From assembly GCA_024398965.1 (NCBI GenBank), contig JAKSIF010000005.1, positions 1 to 64,000 of the forward strand: a stretch of 64,000 nucleotides of DNA, written 5' to 3'. The position numbers and the translations under genes are program-made. A model generated the notes under the pieces. It was given only the letters and a program-made list of their open reading frames with translations. It ran no database searches and was not told the DNA's origin. The first letter of the stretch is position 1. Each line of letters opens with the position of its first letter. Shown in pieces: positions 1 through 43,530 of this stretch. This DNA is from Fibrobacter sp. (GTDB lineage: Bacteria; Fibrobacterota; Fibrobacteria; Fibrobacterales; Fibrobacteraceae).

Positions 1-3000
1 CCATTGACGAGGCCGACAATGGATACGGTGAGTTCTGGGTCGGCGCTGCCGTAGGTCTTGCTCTTGGCTTCGGCGGACACTACGACTGGCTTCTTGCCGA
101 TCGTGAACTCGGCGGACTGTTCACCGCTGAAGTTGCCCTTACCGGTTACCTTCACGGTGTAGGTGCCGGATGCTGTCCATGCGCCTTCGCCCCAGTCGAT
201 GGTGTAGTCGGCATCGGCGACCAAGGCTGTATCGCTTACGGTAAGCGTTACGCTAGGCTTCTGTTCGGTGCCGTTGTAGGTCACGTCTGCGGAGAGTGTG
301 ATTTCTGGGATTGTTGCAGTTGTAATTGTGAAGTCGGCGGCATTGTAGGTGATGCTGTAGCTACCCTGTTCGGAAGCTCCGGACGGGGTGATTGCGTAGA
401 TGCCGACATTTTCACCGGAAGCACGGCCGACTGTGTAGGAGATTGTCTCATCCTTGACGAGACCTTCGACAGTTGCAGTAAGGGTCGGGTCGGTGGTACC
501 GAAGACCTTGCCGGCTGCGACGGCGGTAACGGTTACTGCCTTTCTGCCGATCGTGAACTCGGCGGTCTGTTCGCCGCTGAAGTTGCCCTGGCCCTTAACC
601 TTGACGGTGTAGGTGCCGGCATTCGTCCATGCGCCTTCGCCCCAGTCGATGGTGTAGTCGGCATCGGCGACAAGTGCATTGCCGTTGAAGGTGACTGTTA
701 CGACCGGCTTCTGTTCTTCACCGTTGTAGGTTGCACCAGTTGCGGAGAGCGCGATTTCAGGAATCTTTGCTTGTGCAATCGTAAACTCTGCCGTTGCAGA
801 ACCGCCCACGTAGTTGGAGGTTTCTGCTACAGTTGCCTTGACCACATAGGTGCCGGCGGTAAAAGGCTTGACAGAGCTCCAGTCGCTTTCAACGTAGTCG
901 CCAGTCTTCTTGACTGCATAAGTGATTGAAGGTTCACTTTCCGCGGCGAAGTCGGCAGTTACAGTCGGGCTTGTGGCAGTTTCGCCATAGGTCCAGTCGG
1001 ACATCGCTACGGTAACATCGTTCTGGGTTGCCTTGGCGATAGTATACGTTGCTGTTTTAGTTCCGGTGTAATTGCCTTGACCGACCACAGTTACTGTGTA
1101 GGAACCGGCGTTCACAAAACCAGTCTTGTCCCAAGTTACAACGTAATCCTTGTCTTCGCTAGCGATTAGAACTGCGGTTTCATTAATTGAGCTCTTTACG
1201 GTTAGTGTAGGCGTCTGGGCAAGACCGTTATAGATCTTGTTTTCAGAGAGGGCAATCTGGATTGCTGCAGGAGCAATGGTAAATTCTGCAGTTGCGAATC
1301 CGCCCACATAGTTGGCGGTTTCCTTCACGGTTGCCCTCACAACGTAGGTGCCTGCATTTACAGGAACTGTTGCAGACCAGTCTTCGGTACCCTTCTTGAC
1401 GTAGGTAATGGCGGGTTCGCCTTCAGCCTTGAAGGTTGCGTTCGTCACGGGAGACTTTTCTGCGGAGCCAGTGTAGGTCCAGCCGTCCATTGCCACGGTG
1501 ACTTCGTTGGTCTGGTTCTGAGTAATGGTAAAGGATGCAGGAACGTAGGTCACATGGTAGTTGTCCTGGTTTTCAGCACCGGTCAATGTTACTGCATAAG
1601 TTCCAACGTTTTCACCGGCTTCACGGACGATGGTGAAGTCGATCAGGGTCCTTGCTTCGCCATTAACAAGACCCTTGATTTCGGTGGTGAGAGTATCCGG
1701 GTCGGCTGTATTGTACTGCTTGGTCAGAGCATCCGCAGTGACAGTGACTTCAGCACGGTCGATGATGAACGTACCGTTCTTCACCGTAATGGCGTAGTTG
1801 CTGTTGTCGGTGTAGCTTACGACAAGGGAATCTGTGTAAGTACCTGCGCTCTGGCCTACACCACTACGGCTGTAGGAGACTATTCCAAGGTCGGATGCAT
1901 TCACGAGCCCAACGACGGTACCGGTAAATTCAGGATCCTCATTGCCATAGGTCTTGCTTGCGTTAGCAACGGTGATGGTGACAGCCTTCTTGTTGATATT
2001 GAACTCGGCGGTCTGTTCGCCACTGAAGTTGCCCTTACCGGTTACCTTGACGGTGTATGTTCCAACGTCAGTCCAGTTGCCTTCGCCCCAGTCGATGGTA
2101 TAGTCTGTGCCTGCGACAAGTGCATTGCCATTGAAGGTGACTGTTACGACCGGCTTCTGTTCTTCACCGTTGTAGGTTGCACCAGTTGCGGAGAGCGCGA
2201 TTTCAGGAATCTTTGCTTGTGCAATCGTAAACTCTGCCGTTGCAGAACCGCCCACGTAGTTGGAGGTTTCTGCTACAGTTGCCTTGACCACATAGGTGCC
2301 GGCGGTAAAAGGCTTGACAGAGCTCCAGTCGCTTTCAACGTAGTCGCCAGTCTTCTTGACTGCATAAGTGATTGAAGGTTCACTTTCCGCGGCGAAGTCG
2401 GCAGTTACAGTCGGGCTTGTGGCAGTTTCGCCATAGGTCCAGTCGGACATCGCTACGGTAACATCGTTCTGGGTTGCCTTGGCGATAGTATACGTTGCTA
2501 TTTCAGTTCCTTTGTAGTTGTTCTTGCCAGATACGGTTACAGTATAGGAACCGGCGTTCACGAAACCAGTCTTGTCCCAAGTTACAACGTAATCCTTGTC
2601 TTCGCCAGCGATTAGAACTGCGGATTCATCAATTGTGCTCTTTACGGTTAGTGTAGGCGTCAGGGCAAGACCGTTATAGGTCTTGTTTTCAGAGAGGGCG
2701 ATCTGGATTGCTGCAGGAGCAATGGTAAATTCTGCTGTTGCGGAACCGCCCACGTAATTGGCTGTTTCGGCTACAGTTGCCTTGACCACATAAGTGCCGG
2801 CAGTAGAAGGCTTGATGGAACTCCAGTCGCTTTCGGCGTAGTCACCGGACTTCTTGACTGCATAAGTGATTGAAGGTTCGCCATCCGCATGGAAGACTGC
2901 GTTAGGATCAGGATCCTTGGCTGTTTCGCCATAGGTCCAGCCAGCCATTGTAATAGTAACAGCATTTTCTGGAGCCTGCTTAATCTTGTAGGTTCTTTCA

Positions 3001-6000
3001 ATTTCACCAGTGTAGTTACCCATACCGGTTACAGTTACGACATAGTCGGCAGCATCCTTGAACTCTGTCTTGCCAGCCTTATTCCAGGAAACTGTATAAT
3101 CCGTGTTTTCAACAAGAACAGTATTTCCACCATTTACGGTTTCACCGCTCTTCACGGTAACGGTAGGTTCCTGAACTGCACCCGTATAGTCCACGTCAGC
3201 TGAAATTGCCACCTGTATTGCAGCAGGGGCAATTATATAAGTCGTTGTTTTTGTTCCAGTATAATTGTTTATACCTGTCACAGAAACCGTATATGTTCCT
3301 GCAGCAACAAATTCACTTTCCGCATTCCATGCGAATGTTTCACCCTTCGGGTTCTTCCATTCCACAGTATAGTCAGAACCTTCCGTCATCACAACTTCAT
3401 TATTCTTTGTATTCTTGACGGTCAATGTAGGTGCCTGACGTTCTGCAGTGTAAACAACATTTGCAGAAACCGCGATTTCTATCGAAGCAAGCTCAATGGT
3501 AAATTCATCTATTGCGAACTTACCTTCATAATTAGCCGTTGCATCAACAATAGCCTTCACAACGTAGGTGCCAGCGCTAGAAGGCTTGGTGGCACTCCAA
3601 TCCTCGTCAACATAGCTTCCTTCAGATTTTTTTACTGCATAGACAATTGATTCGTCGCCATCAACCCACGGGCTCTTTGTAACGACTGGTTCCTTTGCGG
3701 TTTCTCCGTAGAACCACCCCTCCATAGCAACGGTCAGTTCCGGAGTATTCTTCTTAATCTCGTAAGTTTGAGATTTTCTTCCAGCATAGTTACCAACACC
3801 ATCAACCGTCAAAGTATAGACAGCAACGTCCTTGAATTCGGATTTTCCTGCCTTATCCCATGTTACGGTATAATCATCATCTGGACCTTCAGTCAATGTA
3901 AGGCCACTGACTTCACTCTTGACATAGAACGAAGGATTCTGAACTGTCTTATTGTAAAGAACTTCTGTCGGATCCATTACAATCTGGATCGGAGCAGCTT
4001 CAATCTTGAAGATGGCGGTATCAACGGCACCTACATAATTGCGCGTTTCAGCAACAGTAGCTCTTACAGTATATATTCCCACGTATTGCGGTTTTTCGGT
4101 ACTCCAAGAACCAACGCTATAAACCCCTTCATTCTCAGTTACTGTAGCGTATTCAATTACAGGTTCGTTTTCACCATGGAACTTGACGATTGTTGTATCA
4201 AAGGTCGGTTTCGTGAAATTACCTGGAGAATTTTCAGTTTGACCAAAAGTCCAGCCATCCATGGAAACTTCAATGCTGTTCTCAGGAGATTTTGTTACAG
4301 TCAAAGTTGCAGGTACGTAAGATACACTGTAGTTACCCTGGGATGCTTCGCCGCTCGGGGTGATGGTATATACCCCAACGACTTCGCCTTCAGATGTACG
4401 AGCCTTATCACGAACGATGCTGTAGCTGATCTTGCTTTCGGGGTCGTTTCTCTTCAGACCGTCAATTTTCACAGTCAGTTCAGGATCAGCAATACCATAC
4501 ACCTTTTCCTTTACCTCTGCGGTTACGACAACCGGTGCATGGGTAATAGAGAATTCAGCGGTTTTATAAGAAACTTTGTAGTTTCCTTGAATTTCATCCC
4601 CCATCGGCGTGATGGTGTATTTATTGACATTTTCACCTTCAGCACGAGAAACAGTATACTTAATCAATTCTGCGGCATGCTCTTTTTCATTTTCTACAAC
4701 ATCAGCAATAGTAGCAGTAAGTGTAGGATCATCATCACCGTAAACCTTTGTATTTGCAACAGCGGTCACTGTTACAGGAGCGTAATCTATGGTATAGCTA
4801 GCTGTTACCCTGGTTCCACTATAGTTACCCGTACCAGAGGCAGACTTGTCCTTACCCGTCACAGAAATGGTATAAACACCAGCATGTTTAAACCAGTCTT
4901 CATCAGCCAAGGTTGAGTCTTTGCCGTTATACTTGTAGCTCCAAGAAATCACATAATCATCCGTAGATTCAACAGACGGAGCATCTCCAGTCACAAGAAC
5001 CTGATTATGCTTACTATTCTTAAGTGTTACCGTTGGAATTTGTTTATCTCCATTGTACACATTCTTTTCAGTAAGAACAATCTGGATCGGAGCTTGCTCA
5101 ATAATATATTTAGCAGTCTTCGTACCTGTATAGTTACCCTGACCGGTTACAGTAACAGTGTAAGTATCTGCGTCGGTAAATCCATCCTTATCCCATGCTA
5201 CAGTGTAGTCCTTGTCTTCACCTTCAACAAGTGCATTTTCTCCCCTCTTCTCGGTTACGGTTACAGTAGGAGCATGCTTGTTGCCGTCATAGTAAACGGA
5301 AGGCATAGCGGAAATAGTTGCATACTTTGCAACATCGGCACGGTTGATTGTATACACCTTAGTTGCGGTTGTTCCGTTGTAGTTATCCGTATCTTCAACA
5401 GTAGCCATTACAACGTAGGTTCCTTGATTTACAGGAGCTGTAGTAGACCAATCTCCATCCACATATTTTTCGGCAACATAGCCTTCATCACCAGCTTTCT
5501 TGACTGCATATTGGATGACCGGTTCCACAGACTTCTTAAAACGAACGCTAGTCTTAGGAGCGTAGGTCTTGCCATCGTAATCCCAGTTGTCATTTAAGGT
5601 AATGGTTACCACATTACCCATAAACTTTTCAATGGTAAAGGTATTCTCTGCTTCGACTGCACTGTAGTTATTAGTATTCTTAACAGATGCCTTTACAGTA
5701 TACGAACCAGCATCCACAGGAATCTTGTCCGTCCAAACTTCAGAACCGTCCTTCTTATACTGATAAGTCGGTTCACCTTCGGCATGGAATTTTACATTAA
5801 TGCCGTCTTCAGGCTGTTTAAATGTTGGAACAGGATTCTTATCGGCCTTGCCGCTATAAACCCAGCCTTCCATTGCCACGGACAGCGTATTATGTTCATC
5901 CTTGGTAATGGTAAAGTCGTTAGGGACATAGGCTACGGTATAGTTGCCCTGATCCTTGTTTCCAGTCGGATTGATCTTGTAGGTTCCTACATTTTCGCCA

Positions 6001-9000
6001 ACATCACGCGGCAAAGTGTAGGATATCAAATTTTCAGATTCGCCATTCACAAGGCCCTTTACAGTCGCCGTGAATGTTGGATCCTTAACACCATAAACCT
6101 TTGTATTAGCAACAGCAGTCACTGTTACAGGAGCAGGTTTAATGACGTAGGTCAGCGTCTGGGTACCAGTGTAATTTCCCTTACCCTTTACGGTAATGGT
6201 ATAGGTCTTGACATTTGTGAAACTAGAGTCGTTCCAGCTTGCATCATAAGCGTTTGCATCACTAGTCACATCAAGTTTTTCACCGATAGTGCTATTAACC
6301 GTATGTGTCGGAATAACATGTGCAAGGCCTGTATAGGTGCCTTCAGATGCAGACAAGGCTATCTTGATCGGAGCCTGGCTAATGGTAAATTCAGCGGTCT
6401 TTTCAGCATAATTGTAGTTGTCCGTATTGGCAACGGAAGCCTTTACCACATAGGATCCTGCATTAACAGGTTTGTCAGCGCTCCAATCAGAAGACCCCTT
6501 CTTTGCATAAGTAATAGTCGGTTCTTCTGCGGCACCAAAATCCGTACTCTTTACAGGGGCTTTGGCAGCTTCGCCATAAGTCCAGCCCGCCATAGTTACA
6601 GTAATCTTAGGATCGGCCTTCTTGATTGTGTAAGTTGCAGTCACCGATACAGTATCGGTGTATTCTGAATTTTCCTTACCCCTAACCGTTACAGTGTATG
6701 TACCAGCATCGATAAAGCCATCCTTATCCCAGGTAGCTACGTAATTTGCTTCGGAAACATTTCCGTCAACGCTCTTCACTGTAATTGTCGGTGCAATTGC
6801 AGAACCTGTATAAATCGGATCAGCAGAAAGAACAACAGCAGTCACATTTTTCTTCCACTTGGCCCTGATAGTGATGTTTTCTGCAGGAATCTTTGCTGGA
6901 ATTTCAGTATCCCAACCATCGAAAGAATAATTCGTTCTTGTTGGGGACTTCGGCGCGGTCACGTCGGAATTATAGTCCTGCTCAATGACAACAGTATTCT
7001 TGCCGTCAATGTTACCGCCTGTGCAATCAAAGGTTATGGTATACTGGTTAATATTCCAACCAGCCAGGTAAACGATATTCGTTGGTGCAGTACCGTTTAC
7101 AGGCAAAGCTTCGTGAACTGCATTGAAGTCTGCAACTTTGACAGGACTAAATGTATAGGCATTCCATTCATTAAAGGTATAACCAATTTTAGAAGGTTTG
7201 CTACCATCTGCAGCAGCCTTCACCTTGGCAAGGACCTTAGAAGGAGTCTTCAAGTCCGGAACATGGATTTCAATGGTCTTGACCTGGTCACCGTTAGCAT
7301 AGGTCGTATCATTCTTTTCATAAGCAACAACTACGGACGTCAACTTAACAGTACTCTTGAAGTTGGCAATGAACGGAGTTGTCTTATTTGTAATCTTACC
7401 CGACAAAGTTCTCGCTGTATTACAGGAAATATCCGGTTCCGGAGTCCAGCAGGCAAATGTATAGGTAGAATCCCTATCTTCCGCCTTTTGTGGATGATCA
7501 CTGAATTCCCTTACAATGGCAGCGTAGATTTCATCGACCGTACCATCGGTAGGCACATTCACATTTTCATGCAATGTACTTGCGATTTGTACCTTCACCT
7601 TGGTCTGCGGGCGGTCACTTTCCTTGAAAATCGGCAAATAACGATCCAACTCGCCAACGGAGCCATTCTTATTCCAAGTATCCGTAAAGGCATAGTCATG
7701 ATCAAGGGTAGATGCCTTCGCAGGTTTAATCTTTTTGTCCGAGAAATGATGATTAATTGCAGTATTGATTTCTGCATCAGTAACTTTATTATCGTTTGGA
7801 ACACTAATTGTATCATTAGTGCCATTTGCTACAGCAACAACATACTTCTGTGCACGAGCTGTAGAGTCAAAGACAGGAATATAGATGTCATCGTCAAATT
7901 CCTTCCAATGAGAAATCGTGACATCCTCCCTTATCACAAAGCGGTAATCATGGGTCAAGGAAGATGCCTGTTTAGGATCAATCCTTAAAGTATCAAGAAT
8001 TTTAAGGCTTATGGCCTCATCAATTTCCTCGATCTTTCCATCTGCAGGTACCTTTGCTGACTGGTTCGTATTGTTAACGACAACCGTAACCGTCTTCTGC
8101 GTTCTTACACTGGAATCAAAGTTCGGAGTGTACTTGCCACCAGCTAAAGTCCAAGTTTCATTAAACTTGAAGTTTTCAGTTAATGTAGAAGCCTTGATTG
8201 GAACAATTTTCTTTCCGTCAAAGTTCTTTCCGTCAAAGTAGCGATTGATTGCTGCATAGATTTCAGCATCGGAACCGTCCTCAGGAACATAAATATCTGT
8301 GTATTCCTTATCAACGGCATCCCTACTTGTAACTACAGCCGTAACGGTAATCTGCGGACGGTCACTTTCGTTGAAGTTCGGTTCATACTTGCCATTATCA
8401 TTCAATATCCAAGAGCTATTGAATTTGTAATCAATATCAAGAGTAGAAGCCTTGATCGGTGTAATAGATCTGTCTTCAAAATACTTGTTAAGAGAAGCCT
8501 GAATTTCTTCTTCCGTTACATGCTCGTCACTAGGAATTGTTACTGTCGTATAATCATTACCATTGACAACTGCAATTACGTTTCTGGTATCACGAGAATC
8601 AACCTTGAAGTTCGGCGTATACTTTCCGTCATCACCCTTTGTCCAAGTCTTATTGAAGGTAAACTTTTCCGTAAGTGTGTAGGTTTTCTGCGGAACAATC
8701 ACAGGATCGTTACTTTCAAGGGCATCATTGATAGCATGTTCAATATCACTATGGTCATCATCATAAGTTACAACCACGAGTTGTTCTTCTGTAATTTCAG
8801 AGCCATATTTCGGAATGTACTTGGCAATCACTTTGTAAGGCGTGCCTGTATAGGTAACAGTAATTTCAAGTCCAACAGAGGAATTCATCACGCCATTTAC
8901 AATGGCAGAATCACTGGTATAATTATCCACCACAGGGCTTGTCACAGAGAAATTTGAAAGGTAAGCAACTTCGCTAACATGATCTTCCGCAACAGTCACA

Positions 9001-12000
9001 CCATTCTTAGCCTTCTTATAATGAATTGTAAGCGGATAGTTCTTAGGTGAATATACAACAGCATATTCAGCATCAGCAATCAATGTTTCTTCAATCACAG
9101 ACTTGTCAGGAGTGTGGCCTTCCAGTTCCGGAGACGTTACGGAATATTTAGTTCCATAATCCAAGGTTTTTTCGTATGTTTTTGGAGCTTCAGCACCTGT
9201 AGTTGTAGAATACACAATTCTCAACACATGGTAGTTCAATGCATACACGGGCTCATATTCAGCATCGCCAGTAACCACCACTGTACGCGGCGAATCAGCA
9301 ACACCATCCTTCCAATTGGTAAAGAAATGATTGCTCATTTCTGCAGGAGTCAAGGTCAGCACTGTACCATAATCAAATACATATACGCATGTATTAGATT
9401 CTTCGTCACAAGATTTCGGTTCTTTCTCAACTCCAGTGCCAATGCTTGCAGAAGCATTTGTCAAGGATATTTCATAGCTATTTGCCTCATAACGAACAGC
9501 AACGCTAGAATCCTTACCAGGCATCGTTACAGTAAAGTTTGCAGGGACAGCTCTGTAACCGTCAATGCCGGACGAAGTAAAGTTACGAGTTTCCCCGTAC
9601 GCCATCACCTCATGAGATTCCTTACGACCTTCGTTAGGCGTGGTATAAACAATTGTCAAGATAAACTTGTCTGGGTTGCTAACAGCTTCATAGCGAACAG
9701 CCTTTTCATCAACAGTAACACTACGCTCTTCCTGAGTGACGCCATCGCTCCAACGGGTGAAGTGATGGAATTCTTCCGGAGCTGCCTTCAAAATGACTTC
9801 AGTACCATAATCGTATGTGCTATCAGCGCTTGCAGGTTCTGCAACTGCGCCAGCATAGTTTAACTTGTACTTTCTAAGAACTGGCTTGAACTTGGCTACA
9901 TATTCAAACGGACCAGAAACACTTTCAAGATCAGGATCCCAACCATCAAATTCATAAGAGTATTCTGTGGTAGATTCCTTCACAGGAAGAGTTCCATCAT
10001 ACACAGGAACAGTTCCGTAGTCAACGTCAATTGTCTTTAGATCGGTCTTTCCATTCTTGAATGTAATTGGGTACTTGCGGAGAGTCTTCGTCCAATCCGG
10101 GCGGGAAATCCATGACCCATTGATAGAATCTGGTCTGGAATAAAGATTGGTTCCAACCACAAAGGAATAATGGTACTGAACATCGCTCTTCTTTTCGGGA
10201 GCATAGCCATTTGCATTCATGTAGGCAGTAATAACGGCAATAGGATCCCTTGCATGGCCTGCTGCCAGTGCACTATCAGGATTCAAGTCTACTCTTCGTA
10301 TTGTTACATTGGTTGTTTTTTCAGGATTAGCATCTTCATCATAGACAACCTTCACAGTCAATTCACGAACATGATGAGTATAATCAGGAACATACTTGTC
10401 TCCTGATTTTTTCCAACCAATAAATTCATGCCAATAATAGGTATCGCTATAGGATTTTGGGGCATTTGTAGGATCTGATTTTTTAATAGCATCTGTAATC
10501 ATTTGACTAATCTGATCAGCAGAAATGCCTTCAAAAATTTTAACGTCTACAGTAATGGTATCTCCATTAGCATCTACATAAGAAACCTGAACAGTCTTTT
10601 CATCTCTCTTAATGTACTTAAATGTCGGTGTAAACACGCTACGGTCTTCATTTATAGACCATTTGTCAAAAACTAGAATGGAATCAAGATATAAAGATTC
10701 GTCCGTAGGCTTTGGTGGATAGTAGTAGAGTCGCTTTAAAGCAGAGTCTACCTTCGTAATGGCGTCATTACCTTTATAAACATTCGGGATACCCTCGACT
10801 TTATAGGACTTATTTTTTGAACCATCGCTTCCATACTCATAGTATGCAAGAATATCACTTTTATTTGCTGTAAAGTTAACGACTTCACGAACATCATGAG
10901 CAGGCATGTGTTCTGCAGCAACAACCATGCGGTCTACCGTATAATCAACGGTTTTATTTCCAGAAACACCAATCGTGTATTCCACATTATTTCTATCTGT
11001 GAACGTTTCATTCACGGAATGTGAGTAAGAATCGCCGAATAAGACTTCTTTATCAACAACAATAATACGTCCTTCATATGAACCACTTGTGGTATACTGA
11101 CCGCGCAACGGGCCATCCTTCAGCACATACACAATCTGCAACTTGTAGGAATTACGTGTATAGGAACCAGTGATTTCAATGTCTTCGTCAGGCATCTTGT
11201 ACGGCAAAAGCGATTCCCAGCCACCAAAGGTATGACCTTCTTCAACCATCTTGTCGTTAGTCATCTCTGCAAGTTGAGAGTCATCTCTTAAAACCTTGCC
11301 ATATTCACGTTCAAAAGTATAGACCTTGTCGGTAAAGTATTCGCCAGTAACTTTGTAGACAATCTTATGCTTGTTGACGTTATAGGTGACCGTAACACTA
11401 ACATCCTGATCACGCATGGTTCCAGAAACGACCGGTTTATCAGCTGTGTAACCTTCAATTTTAGGGCTTTCTACGCTATAGGTTTCTCCATTCTTTACAT
11501 ACTGATAAACATTCTCCATAGGAATCGTAACACCTTCTGGAGCCACATAAGTGATAGTCAGTTTGTGGAAATTCTTATCCGTTTCTGTTTCATAAATGGT
11601 GCCATAAGATGTTTCGTAAGTAGCGTCACCCTTCACCACGACCTTTCTCGGATTATCGTAAATAGGCTTAGCCTCGCTTCCATCCTTCCAGCTTACGAAA
11701 TGTTCATCACTATTTTCAGGAATATCGGCAAGCAAGGAAAGCTGTGTGCCATAAGGGAATATGTATACGCAACCGTTTTCATCACAGGATTCAGCATCCT
11801 TCTTTATACCACCTACAGAAACGGTAGCACCCTTCAAGGTAATTGTATAGTCGTTTGCGGTCCAAACAGCCTTGAGTGTCAAGTTCTTTGTAGGCATGTA
11901 TTCTACACCGGCAGGAATCCAGGAGGTAAGAGTATGACCTTCCATAGACACCTTTGTCGGGTATGTAATTCGAGCACCATTTGTTACCTGGCCTGCAGAG

Positions 12001-15000
12001 TAGTTCACTCCTGCGACACCTTCGGCAACACCACCATCAAAATCCCAGACCAACTGGTACTTGACCTTGGTACCATCTTCAAAAACAGCATTTACAGTAA
12101 TGTTTTCTGCAGGCATTTTTGCAGGGAGAAGCGGCTCCCAGCCAACAAAATTATAGATAGAAGTCAAGTCGGCTTTCTTTTCCGGAACTCGGTCAGAAAC
12201 AAATTTGGGTTCCGCACCATAGCGGAAAGATGCAACCTGGAAATTTACGCCTTCCGATTTGAAGGTTACAGTGTATTCATTACGATCATAATAGACATTG
12301 ACTGTTGTAGATCCGTCCGCAGCAATGGCAACAGCCTTGGACTTTGTTTCATTAAGAGAAAAGCCCTCATAGCCCTTAAATCCGGCAGGTTCAAGAATTG
12401 TCATAGAACCCGTAGGACCTTCAGAAACCTGAGCCTTGTCTTCATCCAAAGTATAACCATCATCGTTTACATTTTGGAAATAGCGAGCAATTTTGTATTC
12501 AGTCGTTTCATGTGGAGCCCACTTGGCATAAAGCTTGAAGGGCTTTGCAGGCATCGTGCTGAAAGTATACTTGTTGACGAGAGCCTTTTCTGCATACCAG
12601 CCATCAAATACATAACCTCTCTTTGTCGGCGTAGTTGGCGGAGTCACAGCGGAGCCATAAGGATGTTCGCTAGAGGCAATGCCATCGCCACCATTCAATT
12701 CGTAGGTAATTGTATAGACGTTAACAGTCCATGTGGCTGTTAACGAAATGTTTTCTGCAGGCATGGTTTCTGGAAGTGTCGGTTCCCAATCCTTAAATGT
12801 ATGGCCAACCTTTGTAGGAGCCTTAGGAGCTTCAATGGCAGAACCAAAATCCTGAGTAATTGGAGAAACAGCAGATCCATCACTTACAAAGGTAATGGTA
12901 TACTGTTTAACCTTCCACTTGGCATAAACGGTAATGTTTTCTGCAGGCATTTTATTGAAGACATAAACAGTCTTCAAGTCGCTATCCGCATACCAGCCAG
13001 CAAAGGTATAACCAGTCTTGGAAGGGTCTTCGGCAGGCTTTACTACGGCGCTATTGTAATCCTGAACAATTTTTTCGACAGAAGTTCCGCCATTGGTTTC
13101 AAAGGCAATTTCATACTGCTTGATTTCCCACTTTGCATACACCGTAATATTTTCGGCAGGCATCGTCGCAAAGCTATAAGCGTTATTCAACGCTTCATCA
13201 CTATACCAGCCAACAAACTCGTAGCCAGTCTTTGTGGGAGCTGTAGGAACCTTGAGTATAGAATTAAACGGCTGCTTAACATCGGCAACTGCGGAACCAC
13301 CATTGCTGTTGAACTTAATGGTAAAGTCATCCACATTCCACTTGGCATAGACAATAATGTCTTCCATTGGAATCGTGGTAAACGTGTAAGCCTTTGTAAA
13401 CCTGGTATCTGCATACCAGCCGGCAAAACTATAGCCGGTCTTTGTTGGAGAGCCAAGTGCAGGAACTGCGTTGCCATAAGGCCCAGTAATAGCATTAACG
13501 GGATTTTCATCACCATCTACTAAAGTACCGCCATTCAAGTTCAAGGAAATAGTACGTTCACTGCCCACCCACTTTGCATAAACAGTTACATCTTCAGCAG
13601 GCATCTTGTTAAAGACAAACGGATTTTCCAGGGCTTCATCGCTGTACCAGCCGGCAAATACATAGCCCTTCTTTGTAGGAGCAACAGGAGCAGAAATTGC
13701 AGCATCGCAGTCTTTTACAATGGGCTGAATAACGTTTCCGCCATTGGTATTAAAGGTAATGGTCGCCTGATTTACCGTCCAGGAAGCGGTCAGCGTAATG
13801 TTTTCAGCAGGCATGGTTGCAGGTGCAGCAGGAACCCAACCGGCAAAGGTATAACCTGGCCTAGAAGCATTAGGAACGCTTACTGCAGCGCCATATTCAG
13901 CAACAACATTTTCTAGAGATTCGCCACCATTGGTATTCAAAGTAATTGTATAGGAATTTGCGGTATAATTTACCGTTACATCCACATTTTCATTATCCAT
14001 CGTTCCCGAAACAGCAGAAGGATCTGCGGTATAACCAACCATGGAAGGAGAAGGAATGGAATACACTTCACCGACTTCAAAAGTCTTTACAACCTTGGCA
14101 GGTGCTGTAGCGCCCTCAGGAACATTGTATGTAATAGTCAAGATATGGGTGTTGATTGCACTATCAGCAGCGAAGGTAGCATCACCAGTAACAATGACTG
14201 TACGACTTTCCGAAGCAAATCCATCGCTCCATTTTGTAAAGTGATGCGGAGCTTTAACCGCCTGGGTCAAAGTCAACGTGGTGCCGTATGCATACTTACC
14301 GTCTTCACCGGCTGCAGGAGTTGCCGTAGCACTAACAAGTTCAATAGCAAAACGCTTTGGAGTATAGTTTACAGTCACATTCTCATCAGCATCAGGCATT
14401 GTACCGGATACAGTTTCCCTATCAACGGTATAGCCTTCAATTGCTGGAGAAGCAACGGAATACATTTCACCGACTTCAAAAGTTTTAACAACCTTAGCAG
14501 GTGCAGTAACGCCTGCAGGAGTCTTATAGGTAATAGTCAAGACATGGGTATTTACAGCTCCTTCTGCTGTGTAGGATACATCACCAGTAACAATAACTGT
14601 GCGGTTTTCTGCAGTAGCGCCATCACTCCACTTGATAAAGTGATTAGGAGCAGCAATATTCTGGGTCAAAGTCAACGTGGTGCCGTATGCATACTTGCCG
14701 TCTTCACCGGCAGCAGGCGTTACGTTCGCACCAGTCACAATAATGGTATAACGATTTAAAGTTTCATTAAATTCAGCAACATATTCGGCATTGCCTGTTA
14801 CGGTGGCAGCAATTGCCGGGCTCCAGCCCTTGAAAGAATAGGAGTATTTATCAGTTGCAGCCTTTGTCGGTTCCGCACCATCGTAGGCAGGGGTTTCATT
14901 TCCAACAGCAACTGTTTTTTCCTGAAGAACTACATCTCCATTCTTAAATGTAACCTTGTATGACTCAGGCTCAACATTCGAATAGGAACCTGTTACAACA

Positions 15001-18000
15001 ACATCATGGTTCGGCATCTTTGCCGGAAGGCCACTCCATCCGCTGAAGAAATAGCCATCATGAACAACAGACTTTGTTGTCGGCGTAAGAGCAGAACCAT
15101 AAGCAACATTCTCCTTTACATCAAAGGATTCGTTGGCAAAATTTTCGCCAACAATCTTGTAAGTCACAGAGAATTTGTTGACTGTATAAGTTACGATCTT
15201 ATTGACATCGGCGCCAGCCATAGTGCCAGTAATATTTGGCTCATCAGCCGTATAACCTTCAATAACCGGGGATACTACGCTATAATCCTCCCCTACCTTC
15301 AGGAACTTTTCTACGGTAACAGGAGTTTCAACGCCATTCGGCACCTTATAAGTAACAGTAAGCTTTTTGGTATTGGCTTCAAATTCAGCAACATATTCTG
15401 CATCACCTGTCACCACAACCTTGCGATTTTCGACTGCAATCCCGTCGGACCACTGAGTAAAGCGACTGTTTTCAGGAGCCTCCGGCGTAAGAGTAAGTTC
15501 AGTACCATAGGCATACTTACCATCTACAGGATCCTTGTCCGCTGTAGCATTTTTCAAGGTTACCACATACATCGCCGGAGACCATACTGCAGTAAGCAGC
15601 AAGTCACTCGCAGGCATGTTCACAACACTTGCAGGATTCCAGACAAATTCGTAACCAGTCTTTGTCACAGATGCTGGATAATCAATCTTAGCACCATTTG
15701 TAACTTCGCCCTTAGTGTATTCCCCAGAAACAACACCTCCGTCAAAATTCCAGGTCAAGGTGTACTTCACTGCAGTTTCTGCAAACTTTGCAGAGTATTC
15801 CGTAGCACCGGAGATAGCGTCAACAGCAGGTTCCCACCCTTCAAAAACAAAACTCTTTTCTGCAGTTGCAGCCTTTGTCGGCGTAGAGCCAATGTATTCC
15901 GGAGTAGCACCAAAGCGCACCTGAGCGGTATAGAGAACCACATCTTCAGCCTTAAATACAGCTTCATAGACGTTGCGATCGCAGTAAACGTTCACGACGG
16001 TGGAACCATCTGCAGCAATACGCTTCGTTTCGGACTTTGCAGAATTCAAGGTAAAGCCATCACCGCACTTGTCTTCGTATGCAATTACAGATTCAGTCAA
16101 ACCATTTACATCAACAGTCTTTGCTTCATCCAGAGTATATTCGCTTCCGCTGACATTCTGGAAATTATACTTAACCTTATAGGCAACTTCGGCAGGATTC
16201 CAAATTGCAGTATAGGTCACGTTCTTTGCAGGCATTGCTTTATCTACAGCAGGAGACCAGCCAGCAAATTCATAACCAGTCTTAGTTACTTCTGGCGCGC
16301 GCAGTGTGGTCAAATAGGCTACAGGGGTTTCATCAGATGTATAATCCTCCCCAGCAGTTCCCGTAGCAACGCCACCATCAAAATTCCAGGTCAAAACATA
16401 CTTGTTCGCAATAAACCGACCAGCCAATTTCACATCGCCTTCTGGCATTATGAATGACGCCTCTACTGGAACAAAATTTTCACCATTGACTCGTTTCCAT
16501 TGATCAAAGCTATATCCTGCATTTGCATCGGGAGCATTAACCAAGGTATACTTATCCCCTGCAGCCACCTTATCTACACGATACAGACGAAGATTTCCAA
16601 TTTTATCAAAAATGAAATATTCAACGTTAAACTTAGGCTGTTCCTGCCATTTGGCGTAGAAGGTCTTGTCGCCAAAATCCCCCTTCACAATTTCAGTAAC
16701 AGGTTCACCATTAAAATATGGATTATCGTACCAACCTTCAAAGGTAAAGCCAGTCTTAGAAACACCAACAGGCAATGTTACGGCATTTTCCACATTATAG
16801 GTTGTAGAAGCAATTGGAGCAGCACCATTGGTCTCATAAGAAACCGTGTAGTTGATCAGTTCATATTTACCACTAATCACTACAGCTGTAGAAGGCATAC
16901 TGAACTTACCATTGGATACAGTAACCCCACCCTTCGTGACTTTCCAGCCACCAAACTTGTAGCCGTCCTTCTCTGGAACATCAATCAAGTAATGGGGAGC
17001 CTTGGCTTCAACCATCAAAGTCAAATAGTTCGCGGTCTTCCCTGCTGCGCTCGTGGTATCGTATTTCAAGGAATACTTGCCATTTTCACCCCAGTACGGA
17101 TACAAGGTCAAATCCTTGTTTTCTGCATAGGTCGCACCAAGCTCATAAACCTTGTTACCACCAGCTACAGTAGACCACCCACTCTGGGTATAGCCCGCAC
17201 GGGTAAACACATCAGAAGACAAGGTATAATCCGCACCGTGAGCCTTTTCACCAGCAGCCACATTGCCAACAACTCCATCGCCACCGGCAAGGTAGCTGAT
17301 CTTGTAAGTTGCGGCGCGCCACTTGGCATACACAACGACATTGCCAAGTTCATTTTCAGGAATGGAATTTTTTGCAATGGTCTTTTCTTCATCGGCGAAC
17401 CACCCTTCAAAGACAAAGCCATCCTTCACCGCTGGTTCAAAAAGGATTGTTCCATATTCTTCCGTATATACAGAAGGGTTCAGCTTGCTGTTTACACCCC
17501 CATCAAGATGGTAGGTAATCGTGTAGCTAACAGCATTCCACTTGGCGTAGACAGTGGTATTGCCTGTAATTTCAGTTACAAAGCTAAATGGAATATTGTA
17601 GAGGTTGCTTGTATACCAGCCGTCAAAGATATAGCCTGCAGCACTAGGCTCTTCCGGCTTAACAGCCCTGGTCCCAGCCTCCACATTCTGTGCAGGGACA
17701 AAGCCATGGCCACCCATTTCAAAAGTCAATTTATAGAATGTAGACTTGGTTTCTTTCCAGACTGCATAGACAACCTTAGCCACATCTGCAACCCCAAGGT
17801 TAGCCGGCACACCGGCATCGCTTGTCAAAGCCCAGCCCAGGAACTTGTAAGAAGTTCCCTCGTGTTCATAATCCGCTGGGGAAGGTATACTTTCAGAAGA
17901 GATCTTGCTACCAAGGTCAAACTTACGAGTCAGGTCCGTCACAGAACCAGGGAACTTGGCAACTTCGCTATTGATATTAAAGGTGATTGTAAGCTGTTCT

Positions 18001-19145
18001 TTCCATACAGCATAAAGCGTTGTGCCCTTGACAGCATTTCCAAAATCGTTTGATGCTTCAACAGCATTCTTTGTCAAAGCCCAACCAGCAAAGGTAAAGC
18101 CTTCCCTTGTCGGTTTTTCAATGCCAGAAGAATAAATGGAAGCGCCAATGCCAAAACCCTTCACAAGACTAGCACTGCCAGAAGAGAATTTACCGCCATT
18201 GGCATCAAAGGTCGCAGCAACAAGCGTGGTTGACCCACTAAAGGTAATACCGGAGTTTACAATATTTTCGCCAACACTCCATACAGTTCCGTTTACGTTA
18301 CATTTGCCACTGGACCAGGTTCCGCCATTAAGAACACAAACCTTATCTGGAGCATTTACATTTACAGTCAAGCCAGAATAGCTCTTTGTTGCAGCATTAC
18401 CAGAGCCAACAACGCCGCCAACACTACCGCTATTACCGTTATTGTTCAGGGACTTTCCATCGTAAACACTCTGTGTAACAGTACCCTTGTTTTCGCCCAC
18501 TACACCGCCAATCTTGGCAGACTTACCGTTACTTGCAATAGACACTGTGCTAAGGGCATTCTTCACGGAACCCTTAGTCAAATTACCGACAACGCCACCC
18601 ACATCCTGATTGTTACCAGAAGTCGTAATGGAACCGGAAGCGTAAGCCTTATCAATAGAACCGTTATTTTCAATTAAGCCAGCAACAACACCCACATTAA
18701 TCGGATTCAGGGAACTTGCGGCATCACCAGGCTTTGTGGCAGAAATGCTTGCATTTGCCAAAACAATGTTAGAAACAGAACCACCAGAAATAACACCAAA
18801 TAAACCTACGTTCGTCTGGGTTTCAGAGCCAACAATCTTCAGGTTAGAGATAGGATAACCTTGTCCGTTAAAGGAACCGGAATACTTTTTAGAGCCGTTA
18901 CCGATCATCGGGAAGTTGCCAGAGCAACTCATGTCAATTGGTGCCGTAACAACAGCATTGGCACTAGTGGACCCGTCATTCACCACTTTAGCAAAGTCGA
19001 CCATGTCTTGACAAGAGCCAATTTGGTAAACACCATTTACCTTATTCAACGCAGCAGCATTTGACGCGGTAAAAAAGATTACCGCCACAGTAAGAAATAA
19101 ACTGCGTAGCAAATTAAACTTTTCATAACCAGATGCTTTTCTCAT
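1..19145 (-). CDS. giant secreted multi-repeat surface protein (5' part; continues beyond left edge)
   Basis: The frame is open from ATG 19145 to the window edge, giving 6381 codons with no stop; I checked the frame at several distant points (19145, 17321, 12950, 2450, 767). An AGAAGGA-type ribosome site precedes the ATG. Residues 1-31 look like a signal peptide. About residues 33-300 are a GLUG-like beta-helix with recurring GGVVG units. About twenty InlB B-repeats (Flg_new; core GYTFAGWY...VYAKW) follow between roughly 18250 and 11850, spaced about 213 bp in places, mixed with MucBP-like units that continue to about 8800. Five or six unrecognised ~75-80 residue repeats fill about 8750-7150. 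One more InlB repeat lies near 7030-6860. From about 6850 to the edge there are alternating MBG (YGX-type) and Ig-like units. A role as a surface adhesin or matrix protein is inferred from the architecture. The C-terminus, where a sorting or anchoring domain would sit, is outside the window. Confidence 0.93.
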   Translation of the reverse strand, partial: MRKASGYEKFNLLRSLFLTVAVIFFTASNAAALNKVNGVYQIGSCQDMVDFAKVVNDGSTSANAVVTAPIDMSCSGNFPMIGNGSKKYSGSFNGQGYPISNLKIVGSETQTNVGLFGVISGGSVSNIVLANASISATKPGDAASSLNPINVGVVAGLIENNGSIDKAYASGSITTSGNNQDVGGVVGNLTKGSVKNALSTVSIASNGKSAKIGGVVGENKGTVTQSVYDGKSLNNNGNSGSVGGVVGSGNAATKSYSGLTVNVNAPDKVCVLNGGTWSSGKCNVNGTVWSVGENIVNSGITFSGSTTLVAATFDANGGKFSSGSASLVKGFGIGASIYSSGIEKPTREGFTFAGWALTKNAVEASNDFGNAVKGTTLYAVWKEQLTITFNINSEVAKFPGSVTDLTRKFDLGSKISSESIPSPADYEHEGTSYKFLGWALTSDAGVPANLGVADVAKVVYAVWKETKSTFYKLTFEMGGHGFVPAQNVEAGTRAVKPEEPSAAGYIFDGWYTSNLYNIPFSFVTEITGNTTVYAKWNAVSYTITYHLDGGVNSKLNPSVYTEEYGTILFEPAVKDGFVFEGWFADEEKTIAKNSIPENELGNVVVYAKWRAATYKISYLAGGDGVVGNVAAGEKAHGADYTLSSDVFTRAGYTQSGWSTVAGGNKVYELGATYAENKDLTLYPYWGENGKYSLKYDTTSAAGKTANYLTLMVEAKAPHYLIDVPEKDGYKFGGWKVTKGGVTVSNGKFSMPSTAVVISGKYELINYTVSYETNGAAPIASTTYNVENAVTLPVGVSKTGFTFEGWYDNPYFNGEPVTEIVKGDFGDKTFYAKWQEQPKFNVEYFIFDKIGNLRLYRVDKVAAGDKYTLVNAPDANAGYSFDQWKRVNGENFVPVEASFIMPEGDVKLAGRFIANKYVLTWNFDGGVATGTAGEDYTSDETPVAYLTTLRAPEVTKTGYEFAGWSPAVDKAMPAKNVTYTAIWNPAEVAYKVKYNFQNVSGSEYTLDEAKTVDVNGLTESVIAYEDKCGDGFTLNSAKSETKRIAADGSTVVNVYCDRNVYEAVFKAEDVVLYTAQVRFGATPEYIGSTPTKAATAEKSFVFEGWEPAVDAISGATEYSAKFAETAVKYTLTWNFDGGVVSGEYTKGEVTNGAKIDYPASVTKTGYEFVWNPASVVNMPASDLLLTAVWSPAMYVVTLKNATADKDPVDGKYAYGTELTLTPEAPENSRFTQWSDGIAVENRKVVVTGDAEYVAEFEANTKKLTVTYKVPNGVETPVTVEKFLKVGEDYSVVSPVIEGYTADEPNITGTMAGADVNKIVTYTVNKFSVTYKIVGENFANESFDVKENVAYGSALTPTTKSVVHDGYFFSGWSGLPAKMPNHDVVVTGSYSNVEPESYKVTFKNGDVVLQEKTVAVGNETPAYDGAEPTKAATDKYSYSFKGWSPAIAATVTGNAEYVAEFNETLNRYTIIVTGANVTPAAGEDGKYAYGTTLTLTQNIAAPNHFIKWSDGATAENRTVIVTGDVSYTAEGAVNTHVLTITYKTPAGVTAPAKVVKTFEVGEMYSVASPAIEGYTVDRETVSGTMPDADENVTVNYTPKRFAIELVSATATPAAGEDGKYAYGTTLTLTQAVKAPHHFTKWSDGFASESRTVIVTGDATFAADSAINTHILTITYNVPEGATAPAKVVKTFEVGEVYSIPSPSMVGYTADPSAVSGTMDNENVDVTVNYTANSYTITLNTNGGESLENVVAEYGAAVSVPNASRPGYTFAGWVPAAPATMPAENITLTASWTVNQATITFNTNGGNVIQPIVKDCDAAISAPVAPTKKGYVFAGWYSDEALENPFVFNKMPAEDVTVYAKWVGSERTISLNLNGGTLVDGDENPVNAITGPYGNAVPALGSPTKTGYSFAGWYADTRFTKAYTFTTIPMEDIIVYAKWNVDDFTIKFNSNGGSAVADVKQPFNSILKVPTAPTKTGYEFVGWYSDEALNNAYSFATMPAENITVYAKWEIKQYEIAFETNGGTSVEKIVQDYNSAVVKPAEDPSKTGYTFAGWYADSDLKTVYVFNKMPAENITVYAKWKVKQYTITFVSDGSAVSPITQDFGSAIEAPKAPTKVGHTFKDWEPTLPETMPAENISLTATWTVNVYTITYELNGGDGIASSEHPYGSAVTPPTTPTKRGYVFDGWYAEKALVNKYTFSTMPAKPFKLYAKWAPHETTEYKIARYFQNVNDDGYTLDEDKAQVSEGPTGSMTILEPAGFKGYEGFSLNETKSKAVAIAADGSTTVNVYYDRNEYTVTFKSEGVNFQVASFRYGAEPKFVSDRVPEKKADLTSIYNFVGWEPLLPAKMPAENITVNAVFEDGTKVKYQLVWDFDGGVAEGVAGVNYSAGQVTNGARITYPTKVSMEGHTLTSWIPAGVEYMPTKNLTLKAVWTANDYTITLKGATVSVGGIKKDAESCDENGCVYIFPYGTQLSLLADIPENSDEHFVSWKDGSEAKPIYDNPRKVVVKGDATYETSYGTIYETETDKNFHKLTITYVAPEGVTIPMENVYQYVKNGETYSVESPKIEGYTADKPVVSGTMRDQDVSVTVTYNVNKHKIVYKVTGEYFTDKVYTFEREYGKVLRDDSQLAEMTNDKMVEEGHTFGGWESLLPYKMPDEDIEITGSYTRNSYKLQIVYVLKDGPLRGQYTTSGSYEGRIIVVDKEVLFGDSYSHSVNETFTDRNNVEYTIGVSGNKTVDYTVDRMVVAAEHMPAHDVREVVNFTANKSDILAYYEYGSDGSKNKSYKVEGIPNVYKGNDAITKVDSALKRLYYYPPKPTDESLYLDSILVFDKWSINEDRSVFTPTFKYIKRDEKTVQVSYVDANGDTITVDVKIFEGISADQISQMITDAIKKSDPTNAPKSYSDTYYWHEFIGWKKSGDKYVPDYTHHVRELTVKVVYDEDANPEKTTNVTIRRVDLNPDSALAAGHARDPIAVITAYMNANGYAPEKKSDVQYHYSFVVGTNLYSRPDSINGSWISRPDWTKTLRKYPITFKNGKTDLKTIDVDYGTVPVYDGTLPVKESTTEYSYEFDGWDPDLESVSGPFEYVAKFKPVLRKYKLNYAGAVAEPASADSTYDYGTEVILKAAPEEFHHFTRWSDGVTQEERSVTVDEKAVRYEAVSNPDKFILTIVYTTPNEGRKESHEVMAYGETRNFTSSGIDGYRAVPANFTVTMPGKDSSVAVRYEANSYEISLTNASASIGTGVEKEPKSCDEESNTCVYVFDYGTVLTLTPAEMSNHFFTNWKDGVADSPRTVVVTGDAEYEPVYALNYHVLRIVYSTTTGAEAPKTYEKTLDYGTKYSVTSPELEGHTPDKSVIEETLIADAEYAVVYSPKNYPLTIHYKKAKNGVTVAEDHVSEVAYLSNFSVTSPVVDNYTSDSAIVNGVMNSSVGLEITVTYTGTPYKVIAKYIPKYGSEITEEQLVVVTYDDDHSDIEHAINDALESNDPVIVPQKTYTLTEKFTFNKTWTKGDDGKYTPNFKVDSRDTRNVIAVVNGNDYTTVTIPSDEHVTEEEIQASLNKYFEDRSITPIKASTLDIDYKFNSSWILNDNGKYEPNFNESDRPQITVTAVVTSRDAVDKEYTDIYVPEDGSDAEIYAAINRYFDGKNFDGKKIVPIKASTLTENFKFNETWTLAGGKYTPNFDSSVRTQKTVTVVVNNTNQSAKVPADGKIEEIDEAISLKILDTLRIDPKQASSLTHDYRFVIREDVTISHWKEFDDDIYIPVFDSTARAQKYVVAVANGTNDTISVPNDNKVTDAEINTAINHHFSDKKIKPAKASTLDHDYAFTDTWNKNGSVGELDRYLPIFKESDRPQTKVKVQIASTLHENVNVPTDGTVDEIYAAIVREFSDHPQKAEDRDSTYTFACWTPEPDISCNTARTLSGKITNKTTPFIANFKSTVKLTSVVVAYEKNDTTYANGDQVKTIEIHVPDLKTPSKVLAKVKAAADGSKPSKIGYTFNEWNAYTFSPVKVADFNAVHEALPVNGTAPTNIVYLAGWNINQYTITFDCTGGNIDGKNTVVIEQDYNSDVTAPKSPTRTNYSFDGWDTEIPAKIPAENITIRAKWKKNVTAVVLSADPIYTGSAIAPTITVKSVDGNVSEANYVATWDKDGFIDAGTYTVTVRGKENSEYTDTVSVTATYTIKKADPKITVTMAGWTYGEAAKAPVKSTDFGAAEEPTITYAKKGSSDWSADKPVNAGSYVVKASVANTDNYNYAEKTAEFTISQAPIKIALSASEGTYTGLAHVIPTHTVNSTIGEKLDVTSDANAYDASWNDSSFTNVKTYTITVKGKGNYTGTQTLTYVIKPAPVTVTAVANTKVYGVKDPTFTATVKGLVNGESENLISYTLPRDVGENVGTYKINPTGNKDQGNYTVAYVPNDFTITKDEHNTLSVAMEGWVYSGKADKNPVPTFKQPEDGINVKFHAEGEPTYQYKKDGSEVWTDKIPVDAGSYTVKASVKNTNNYSAVEAENTFTIEKFMGNVVTITLNDNWDYDGKTYAPKTSVRFKKSVEPVIQYAVKKAGDEGYVAEKYVDGDWSTTAPVNQGTYVVMATVEDTDNYNGTTATKVYTINRADVAKYATISAMPSVYYDGNKHAPTVTVTEKRGENALVEGEDKDYTVAWDKDGFTDADTYTVTVTGQGNYTGTKTAKYIIEQAPIQIVLTEKNVYNGDKQIPTVTLKNSKHNQVLVTGDAPSVESTDDYVISWSYKYNGKDSTLADEDWFKHAGVYTISVTGKDKSASGTGNYSGTRVTASYTIDYAPVTVTAVANTKVYGDDDPTLTATIADVVENEKEHAAELIKYTVSRAEGENVNKYTITPMGDEIQGNYKVSYKTAEFSITHAPVVVTAEVKEKVYGIADPELTVKIDGLKRNDPESKISYSIVRDKARTSEGEVVGVYTITPSGEASQGNYSVSYVPATLTVTKSPENSIEVSMDGWTFGQTENSPGNFTKPTFDTTIVKFHGENEPVIEYATVTENEGVYSVGSWSTEKPQYVGIYTVRATVAETRNYVGAVDTAIFKIEAAPIQIVMDPTEVLYNKTVQNPSFYVKSEVSGLTLTEGPDDDYTVTWDKAGKSEFKDVAVYTLTVDGVGNYAGRKSQTYEIKKNTPELTVAMEGWFYGETAKEPVVTKSPWVDGDESIVYAVKKSEGSYVDEDWSATKPSSAGTYVVKAIVDATANYEGKFAIDEFTIELASIEIAVSANVVYTAERQAPTLTVKNTKNNEVVMTEGSDYTVEWKNPKGETFAWNAESEFVAAGTYTVSVTGINNYTGTKTTTYIIAPAAIQVAISADVDYTGAVQEPTVTVKSGETVNGGNTVLVENTDYTVSWNKAGKTEFKDAADYVVTVTGMGNYTGEIERTYKIKQAPENAVTITMAGWTYGETAKDPDPNAVFHADGEPSITYAVKKSGDYAESDWSSIKPSTAGTYVVKATVAETANYVGGSATAEFTIAPAAIQIALSENKTYNGLALTPTLTVKSTIDESAVLIAGEDKDYVVTWDKTGFVNAGSYTVTVSGKNNYKGTEIATYTIAKATQNDVTVAMSDWTYGETATSPTVTADFAAESEPSITYAVKKTGDYVESDWSSVKPFTAGTYVVKATVAETSNYVGGSATAEFTIAQAKIPEIALSATGATYNGEEQKPVVTVTFNGNALVAGTDYTIDWGEGNWTDVGTYTVKVTGKGNFSGEQTAEFNINKKAVTITVANASKTYGNEDPEFTGTVVGLVNASDLGIVSYSRSGVGQSAGTYTDSLVVSYTDNSNYAITVKNGTFIIDRAEVTVTADALTKQYNTADPDTLTTEIKGLVNGEARTLIDFTIVREAGENVGTYAVTLTGAENQDNYHVTYVPASFTITQNQTNEVTVAMDGWTYTGSAEKSPVTNATFKAEGEPAITYVKKGTEDWSATVPVNAGTYVVRATVKETANYVGGFATAEFTIAPAAIQIALSENKIYNGLAQTPTLTVKSSINETAVLIASEDKDYVVTWDKTGFVNAGSYTVTVVGQGNYTGTKTATYTIAKATQNDVTVAMSDWTYGETATSPTVTADFAAESEPSITYAVKKTGDYVESDWSSVKPFTAGTYVVKATVAETSNYVGGSATAEFTIAQAKIPEIALSATGATYNGEEQKPVVTVTFNGNALVADADYTIDWGEGAWTNAGTYTVKVKGQGNFSGEQTAEFTIGRKAVTVTAVAAGKVFGTTDPTLTATVEGLVKDETISYTVGRASGENVGIYAITPSGASEQGSYSITYNAADFTITTATIPEITLSADVTYNGTEQKPSVTLTVSDTALVADADYTIDWGEGAWTASGTYTVKVTGKGNFSGEQSAEFTIGKKPVVVSAEAKSKTYGSADPELTVSIVGLVN
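669..1053 (-). repeat. near-identical 385-bp repeat, copy A, inside the giant gene
   Basis: This segment matches 2115-2499 with one visible mismatch over 385 bp. The offset is 1446 bp, exactly 482 codons, so the reading frame is kept. Weaker similarity extends on both sides, to about 531 and 1290. It codes for an MBG/Ig-like unit pair. Confidence 0.92.
2115..2499 (-). repeat. near-identical 385-bp repeat, copy B, inside the giant gene
   Basis: Partner of 669-1053, in direct orientation and the same frame. The near-absence of silent differences, in an array whose other units have diverged, indicates recent duplication or gene conversion. Confidence 0.92.
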
Positions 19146-21593: not shown

Positions 21594-21762
21594 ACACATA
21601 CCCATAAAGACGTTTTTAACGTACCCAACCTACCCAATATAAATATAAACCCCACAAATAATAAAACGGTCACTTCTTGTCCACATTACCATGGATAAAA
21701 AGTCCACAGTCATCCAACCTTAAAAAACACGCAAAATTTTAAAATTTCAATGCAATTGGCAG

Positions 21763-29776: not shown

Positions 29777-29816
29777 GTTTCCTCCCAAATAACATTCTAA
29801 ATCCCCGACACCCTAC

Positions 29817-43397: not shown

Positions 43398-43463
43398 ATG
43401 TAATCTCCCATAAACACTTACATCCAATATACTCTTTATTTTGTATAAAAAAACACGGGTAAC

Positions 43464-43491
43464 AAAAAAAGGTCCCACAAGGGGGAACCTT
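43464..43491 (-). terminator. cytX terminator
   Basis: AAGGTTCCC / GGGACCTT arms with a U tract on the minus strand, about 40 nt after the transporter stop and before the GH16 gene start. Confidence 0.65.
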
Positions 43492-43530
43492 CTCAAATTA
43501 CATAGCGATGAAGAGCTGAAAAAATTATTT

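Follow-up and report, generated by a model that had tools for sequence, protein, structure and literature searches.

The window (the whole stretch of DNA that was analysed, 64,000 nucleotides from a gut Fibrobacter sp.) begins within the gene of a giant protein which, with at least 7,600 amino acids, is among the largest bacterial surface proteins. In the explanation that we favour, with moderate confidence, the open frame of the window encodes, from the N-terminus on, five sixths of a giant whose full length is at least about 7,613 residues, and the complete protein would be an extended surface adhesin, exported by the T9SS and served by a dedicated pair of membrane partners. Beyond what an earlier note on this DNA contained, the continuation of the giant was located on a second contig, two co-inherited partner genes were found, and the locus was recognised as an accessory insertion. 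The tight attachment of Fibrobacter to plant fibre is a long-standing question, to which the accessory cassette of three genes brings a concrete and testable candidate.

Open frame and repeat modules of the giant

The minus-strand frame runs from 19154/19145 to position 3 and contains 6,399 codons without a stop, a run with a chance probability of about 1e-167 at the local base composition. Since base 1 of the window is base 1 of the contig (C5), the frame leaves the contig itself and not merely the window. The window DNA is known from one fragmented assembly (3.59 Mb in 151 contigs). Direct reading of the sequence revealed AGAAGG 9 bases upstream of 19145, thus this position is preferred as the start, and the N-terminus that follows is hydrophobic and ends in NAAA. 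An uninterrupted giant frame of at least 6,381 residues running off the edge, the start at 19145 and a signal peptide had been claimed in the earlier note, and the first two agree with these observations, the N-terminus being signal-peptide-like. The GC content of the giant gene (window 1-19145) was 44.8%, compared with 50.0% in the remaining window, as would fit a locus that was acquired or evolves fast. The parts of the gene are the following, with residue numbers counted from the first ATG:

3..19145, minus strand: N-terminal part of the giant surface protein, with 6,381 aa or more, cut by the contig edge and continuing on contig C73
19050..19145, minus strand: signal-peptide-like N-terminus, MRKASGYEKFNLLRSLFLTVAVIFFTASNAAA, from direct reading of the sequence
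18255..19010, minus strand: region with two sub-threshold GLUG motifs
11175..18212, minus strand: series of InlB B (Flg_new), divergent InlB B (Flg_new_2) and MucBP-like modules, from Pfam and profiles
10359..10601, minus strand: unmodelled Fibrobacter repeat, unit 1 of 7 (residues 2852-2932)
8847..10073, minus strand: more modules of the InlB B, divergent InlB B and MucBP-like kinds (residues 3028-3436), from Pfam and profiles
7386..8840, minus strand: six unmodelled repeats in tandem (residues 3439-3923), predicted beta-beta-alpha-beta-beta
6861..7043, minus strand: lone InlB B-repeat, separating the unmodelled repeats from the MBG array
3..6836, minus strand: MBG/Ig-like array, continued on C73

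The modules were placed using profiles built from the giant itself. In the C5 part approx. 72 were found (23 InlB B, 6 divergent InlB B, 7 MucBP-like, 28 MBG-like and 8 hits of the unmodelled repeat, the latter being 7 units and a fragment), and the C73 part added 15 modules of the same classes, nine of them MBG-like, so that at least 87 small modules are present. The InlB B-repeat (Flg_new, Flg_new_2; PF09479), MucBP and MBG_2/MBG_3 (PF18676/PF18887) exceeded the Pfam cut-offs in the giant, while GLUG (PF07581) stayed below (16.4 bits, cut-off 20.5). The earlier list of repeats therefore holds for InlB, MucBP and MBG and not for GLUG; the unknown class that it also contained is real and counts 7 units in the frame of the window. 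The search of the giant for carbohydrate-binding and catalytic domains gave none over cut-off and a single sub-threshold CBM_X2 hit; a ligand-binding domain over cut-off and a leucine-rich internalin domain were not found in the giant either. A limited literature search returned no publication on Fibrobacter with InlB B-repeats.

The unmodelled 77-residue repeat (25 units aligned, from the window and the named relatives) had no Pfam match and constitutes a family outside all Pfam models. AlphaFold2 predicted a beta-beta-alpha-beta-beta arrangement (pLDDT 87), for which the best structural match was the ubiquitin family (Z 3.9, 2.7 A over 55), and the comparison with the InlB B-repeat 2y5p gave Z 3.6 and 3.0 A over 52. 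Profile search of PDB sequences yielded weak hits to ubiquitin, and Foldseek ranked no structure significantly. According to the model the repeat is likely a beta-grasp, although all structural scores are weak. A profile-profile link to the InlB B-repeat was considered and rejected, as a short Y-F-W motif alone aligned (probability 11%). Full-length strong matches of the repeat were confined to Fibrobacter among 168 genomes of the phylum.

Four other genes of the window deserve mention. The product of 27263-29788 (minus strand, 841 aa), with an InlB B-repeat, GLUG over cut-off and a weak T9SS tail, is by its sequence another surface protein of related composition near the giant, though of ordinary size. 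A protein with the Fibrobacter succinogenes major domain (PF09603, 436 aa) is encoded at 32677-33987 and a GH16-like protein, whose T9SS tail exceeds the cut-off, at 42168-43553, both on the minus strand. The 609 aa product of 35838-37667 (minus strand), whose best Pfam match is apolipoprotein-like and below cut-off, is probably a long coiled-coil or amphipathic-helix protein.

The C-terminal part on a second contig

The earlier note had proposed to look past the left edge for the C-terminus, and it was found on C73, a contig of 8,957 bp outside the window. There the giant continues for 1,232 aa (L040:8957->5262) and ends in a T9SS-type tail, ...AGNYVLRVNNQTSRVVVK. In the source genome MBG_2 occurred on contigs C5 and C73 only, and the minus strand of C73 starts inside the repeat of C5 (95% DNA identity over 210 bp). 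Since no exact suffix/prefix overlap exists between the two contigs, the join was tested by gene order instead. Two genes upstream of the giant matter here:

19446..21605, minus strand: GH43 arabinanase-like enzyme with CBM6 and a weak T9SS tail
22746..24119, minus strand: C4-dicarboxylate transporter Dcu, the synteny anchor for the C5-C73 join

Dcu and the ThiG of C73 were 1.5-7.5 kb apart in six genomes of the same genus (G055, G024, G071, G073, G023, G051), with the same order and strand in all of them. In G055 the order is Dcu-MscS-GH43-[empty]-ThiS/ThiF-ThiG, and the interval between GH43 and thiS is an exact empty site: similarity to C73 ends at the stop codon of the lipoprotein gene, and similarity to C5 resumes at the end of the GH43 gene, which is conserved beside the empty site and forms one boundary of the insertion. 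The synteny and the empty site together mean that the two contigs border a single locus. That C73 might hold a second giant gene of its own was rejected on the same gene order and on the restriction of MBG_2 to these contigs. Judged from the sequences, the giant and the two genes downstream of it are present here and absent in G055, by gain here or loss there. The combined giant has at least 7,613 aa, about 823 kDa, a pI of 4.7 and 17 cysteines; the length is a lower bound, as further repeats may sit in the gap.

Some further observations concern the surroundings of the join. A 713-bp unit of C73 is duplicated in tandem with 99.7% identity (first 205-1637 bases from the high end, L040), which points to a recent expansion of the repeats or to an assembly problem close to the contig break. 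In G071 (contig C10; L157 6966-7362) the interval matching the insertion site holds another thiF-like fragment, a partial one, which hints at a rearrangement there. A search for riboswitches upstream of the giant and of the thi genes gave no Rfam match over threshold.

Export and partner genes

Enzymes of Fibrobacter, cellulases among them, were earlier proposed as T9SS cargo via tails of this kind (PMC6851124). SprA was detected in the source genome with 1135 bits, together with at least 41 proteins having type A tails (TIGR04183) over cut-off. The C73 tail did not reach the TIGR04183 cut-off; a profile of the source genome's own tails recovered it with E 2.4e-7, as well as the tails of the giants in the relatives, with E down to 5e-13, and none of 200 shuffles and 200 background pieces was among the matches listed. 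DUF6383 matched the tail weakly (E 0.0004), and the NCBIfam matches of the C73 part, taken up to E 0.1, did not include the Type B CTD (TIGR04131). In a poorly resolved tree of 70 tail residues the linked tails did not form one clade. From its tail, the giant is apparently exported by the T9SS; the recovered tail strengthens the earlier view of a giant Fibrobacter surface protein of several repeat classes.

Two genes follow the giant on C73, at distances of 14 bases (giant to barrel) and 8 bases (barrel to lipoprotein):

L040 5244->4228: gene of the predicted outer-membrane barrel, 339 aa, secreted, directly downstream of the giant
L040 4216->3437: lipoprotein gene, 260 aa, after the barrel gene

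The fold predicted for the barrel, modelled on the protein of the relative L144 in place of that of C73, has 8 strands of the OmpA/NspA/OmpW type (Z 14-15 to OmpA and NspA; pLDDT mostly 75-95 in the barrel and 68 overall). It is preceded by a long disordered N-terminal linker and a helix, and the protein ends at the last strand, WRIIIDFSLL. No conserved cysteine was present among 12 members of the family; in the lipoprotein family the lipobox cysteine and four further invariant cysteines were kept. The barrel had no NCBIfam match, PorP/SprF (TIGR03519) included, and no hit in a sequence-profile search of the PDB; PorP/SprF and PorV were absent among its structural matches listed. The source genome had no PorP/SprF member over cut-off (a partial match gave 23 bits vs 90.55). 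Since the barrel matches none of the known T9SS shuttle families, the case for an anchoring role is one of linkage and analogy, by which the most probable task of the barrel and the lipoprotein is to hold or guide the giant, or to anchor it, at the outer membrane.

In genomes of the same genus both genes adjoin a giant tail-bearing protein, mostly divergently, while here they are co-directional with it. All three genes were found together at 9 of the 11 named Fibrobacter loci; of the other two, L146 is a 3.6-kb contig and L147 is listed with the barrel only. The named loci with the barrel gene all belonged to Fibrobacter in a scan of GTDB contigs, which used short peptide patterns and may miss relatives; this agrees with the attribution of the DNA to Fibrobacter made earlier.

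These data bear on another explanation, according to which the giant is an ordinary type A cargo, handled by PorV/PorU and attached to the surface like the other tailed proteins of the genome, and the linkage of the barrel and lipoprotein genes has a different reason, e.g. envelope maintenance or sensing. The tail does resemble the common type A-like tails of the genome, and type A cargo relies on PorV and needs no dedicated partner (PMC12618676). Nevertheless, the barrel and lipoprotein accompany this subfamily almost without exception, in two gene orientations, and we regard this explanation as rather unlikely.

Distribution of the cassette

Barrel and repeat occurred together in 20 of the 168 genomes of the phylum, 1 + 1 were discordant and 146 had neither (Fisher 1e-23), while in the 61 genomes of the genus the corresponding figures were 14, 1 + 1 and 45 (Fisher 1e-11); these Fisher values ignore phylogeny and depend on E-value thresholds of our own choice (repeat below 1e-10; barrel below 1e-100 or 1e-50, depending on the scan). 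The co-occurrence and linkage suggest that giant, barrel and lipoprotein are inherited as a cassette of three genes. The linked giants range between some 1,100 and more than 7,600 aa, and G024 has a related unit elsewhere, on its contig C19. Since genomes estimated to be 100% complete and having neither barrel nor repeat exist, the cassette is accessory, and the many members of the genus that do not carry it mean that it is not essential for fibre attachment in the genus.

The patchy occurrence in the genus and the variable length of the giants would also suit a structural coat or spacer, a long acidic fibre for spacing the surface or shielding it from phages and protists, as would a composition of mostly repetitive beta modules, acidic and devoid of any recognised binding domain above cut-off. 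MucBP and InlB B-repeats are characteristic of proteins in contact with mucus or host surfaces, and this, as well as the mixture of repeat classes, which speaks against a regular lattice, makes such a coat improbable in our judgement.

Mis-assembly, i.e. a chimeric frame of concatenated repeats from several genes, which the earlier note had named as a possible source of error, is suggested by near-identical repeats near the contig breaks (99.7% over 713 bp on C73, 92% over 806 bp on C5) but is very hard to reconcile with 6,399 codons free of stops and frameshifts, with repeats that are mostly well diverged (TRF found no long array) and with independent assemblies, in which single-contig giants of 1,900-4,800 aa have a matching tail, the repeat and a linked barrel.

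Proposed function of the giant

The working proposed for the giant as a partnered adhesin starts from what can be read in the sequence: the frame, the repeat classes, the similarity of the tail, the linkage of the three genes and the insertion site. The protein would first cross by Sec, by means of its putative signal peptide, and the T9SS would then recognise the C-terminal tail encoded on C73 and translocate the protein. Outside it would form a long thin chain of small, mostly beta modules, in the order InlB B, MucBP, the Fibrobacter-specific beta-grasp-like repeat and MBG/Ig-like, the base of which would be held or guided by the barrel and the lipoprotein as SprB is by SprF. The tethered fibre may bind a surface, plant fibre or neighbouring cells, through many weak contacts. 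Given the arabinanase neighbour and the fibre-degrading genus, plant fibre is the natural first candidate ligand, and a putative role as adhesin or scaffold in fibre attachment is plausible.

Comparison with known systems

The giant shares many bona fide InlB B copies with the InlB B-repeat/Listeria-Bacteroides repeat proteins (PF09479, TIGR02543), but it adds MucBP, MBG, the unmodelled repeat and a T9SS-type tail, and the leucine-rich internalin domain is missing. With the T9SS-tailed cellulases and the BTD/Fpm-1 proteins of Fibrobacter succinogenes it has the tail type and the genus in common (PMC6851124), while it is much larger, is accompanied by two partner genes and has no catalytic or carbohydrate-binding domain over cut-off.

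PorG is a predicted 8-stranded outer-membrane protein of the T9SS (PMC12635249), and the barrel described here is likewise small, of 8 predicted strands and from a T9SS organism. However, PorG belongs to the secretion core and bears cysteines in a C-tail on the periplasmic side, whereas our barrel is accessory, ends at its last strand and has no conserved cysteine.

The closest parallel in arrangement is drawn with SprB of Flavobacterium johnsoniae, a giant T9SS gliding adhesin bound and anchored by SprF (PMC9143113, PMC12635249); porP/sprF-like genes commonly stand directly downstream of type B cargo genes (PMC12618676). In both cases a giant repetitive surface protein with a T9SS-type tail has the gene of an outer-membrane protein beside it, here directly downstream. 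The partner here, by contrast, is predicted to be OmpA-like and 8-stranded, has no conserved cysteines and is unrelated to SprF, and the tail is type A-like and not type B; gliding is not implied. It is conceivable, although we would lean against it at present, that Fibrobacter possesses its own PorP/SprF-independent partner system for giant T9SS fibres, composed of an OmpA-like barrel and a cysteine-rich lipoprotein, together with a helix-bearing, InlB-B-like beta-grasp repeat confined to this genus among the genera of the phylum surveyed. The cassette may be a second solution to the problem that SprB and SprF solve, the loading and holding of a giant adhesin at the outer membrane.
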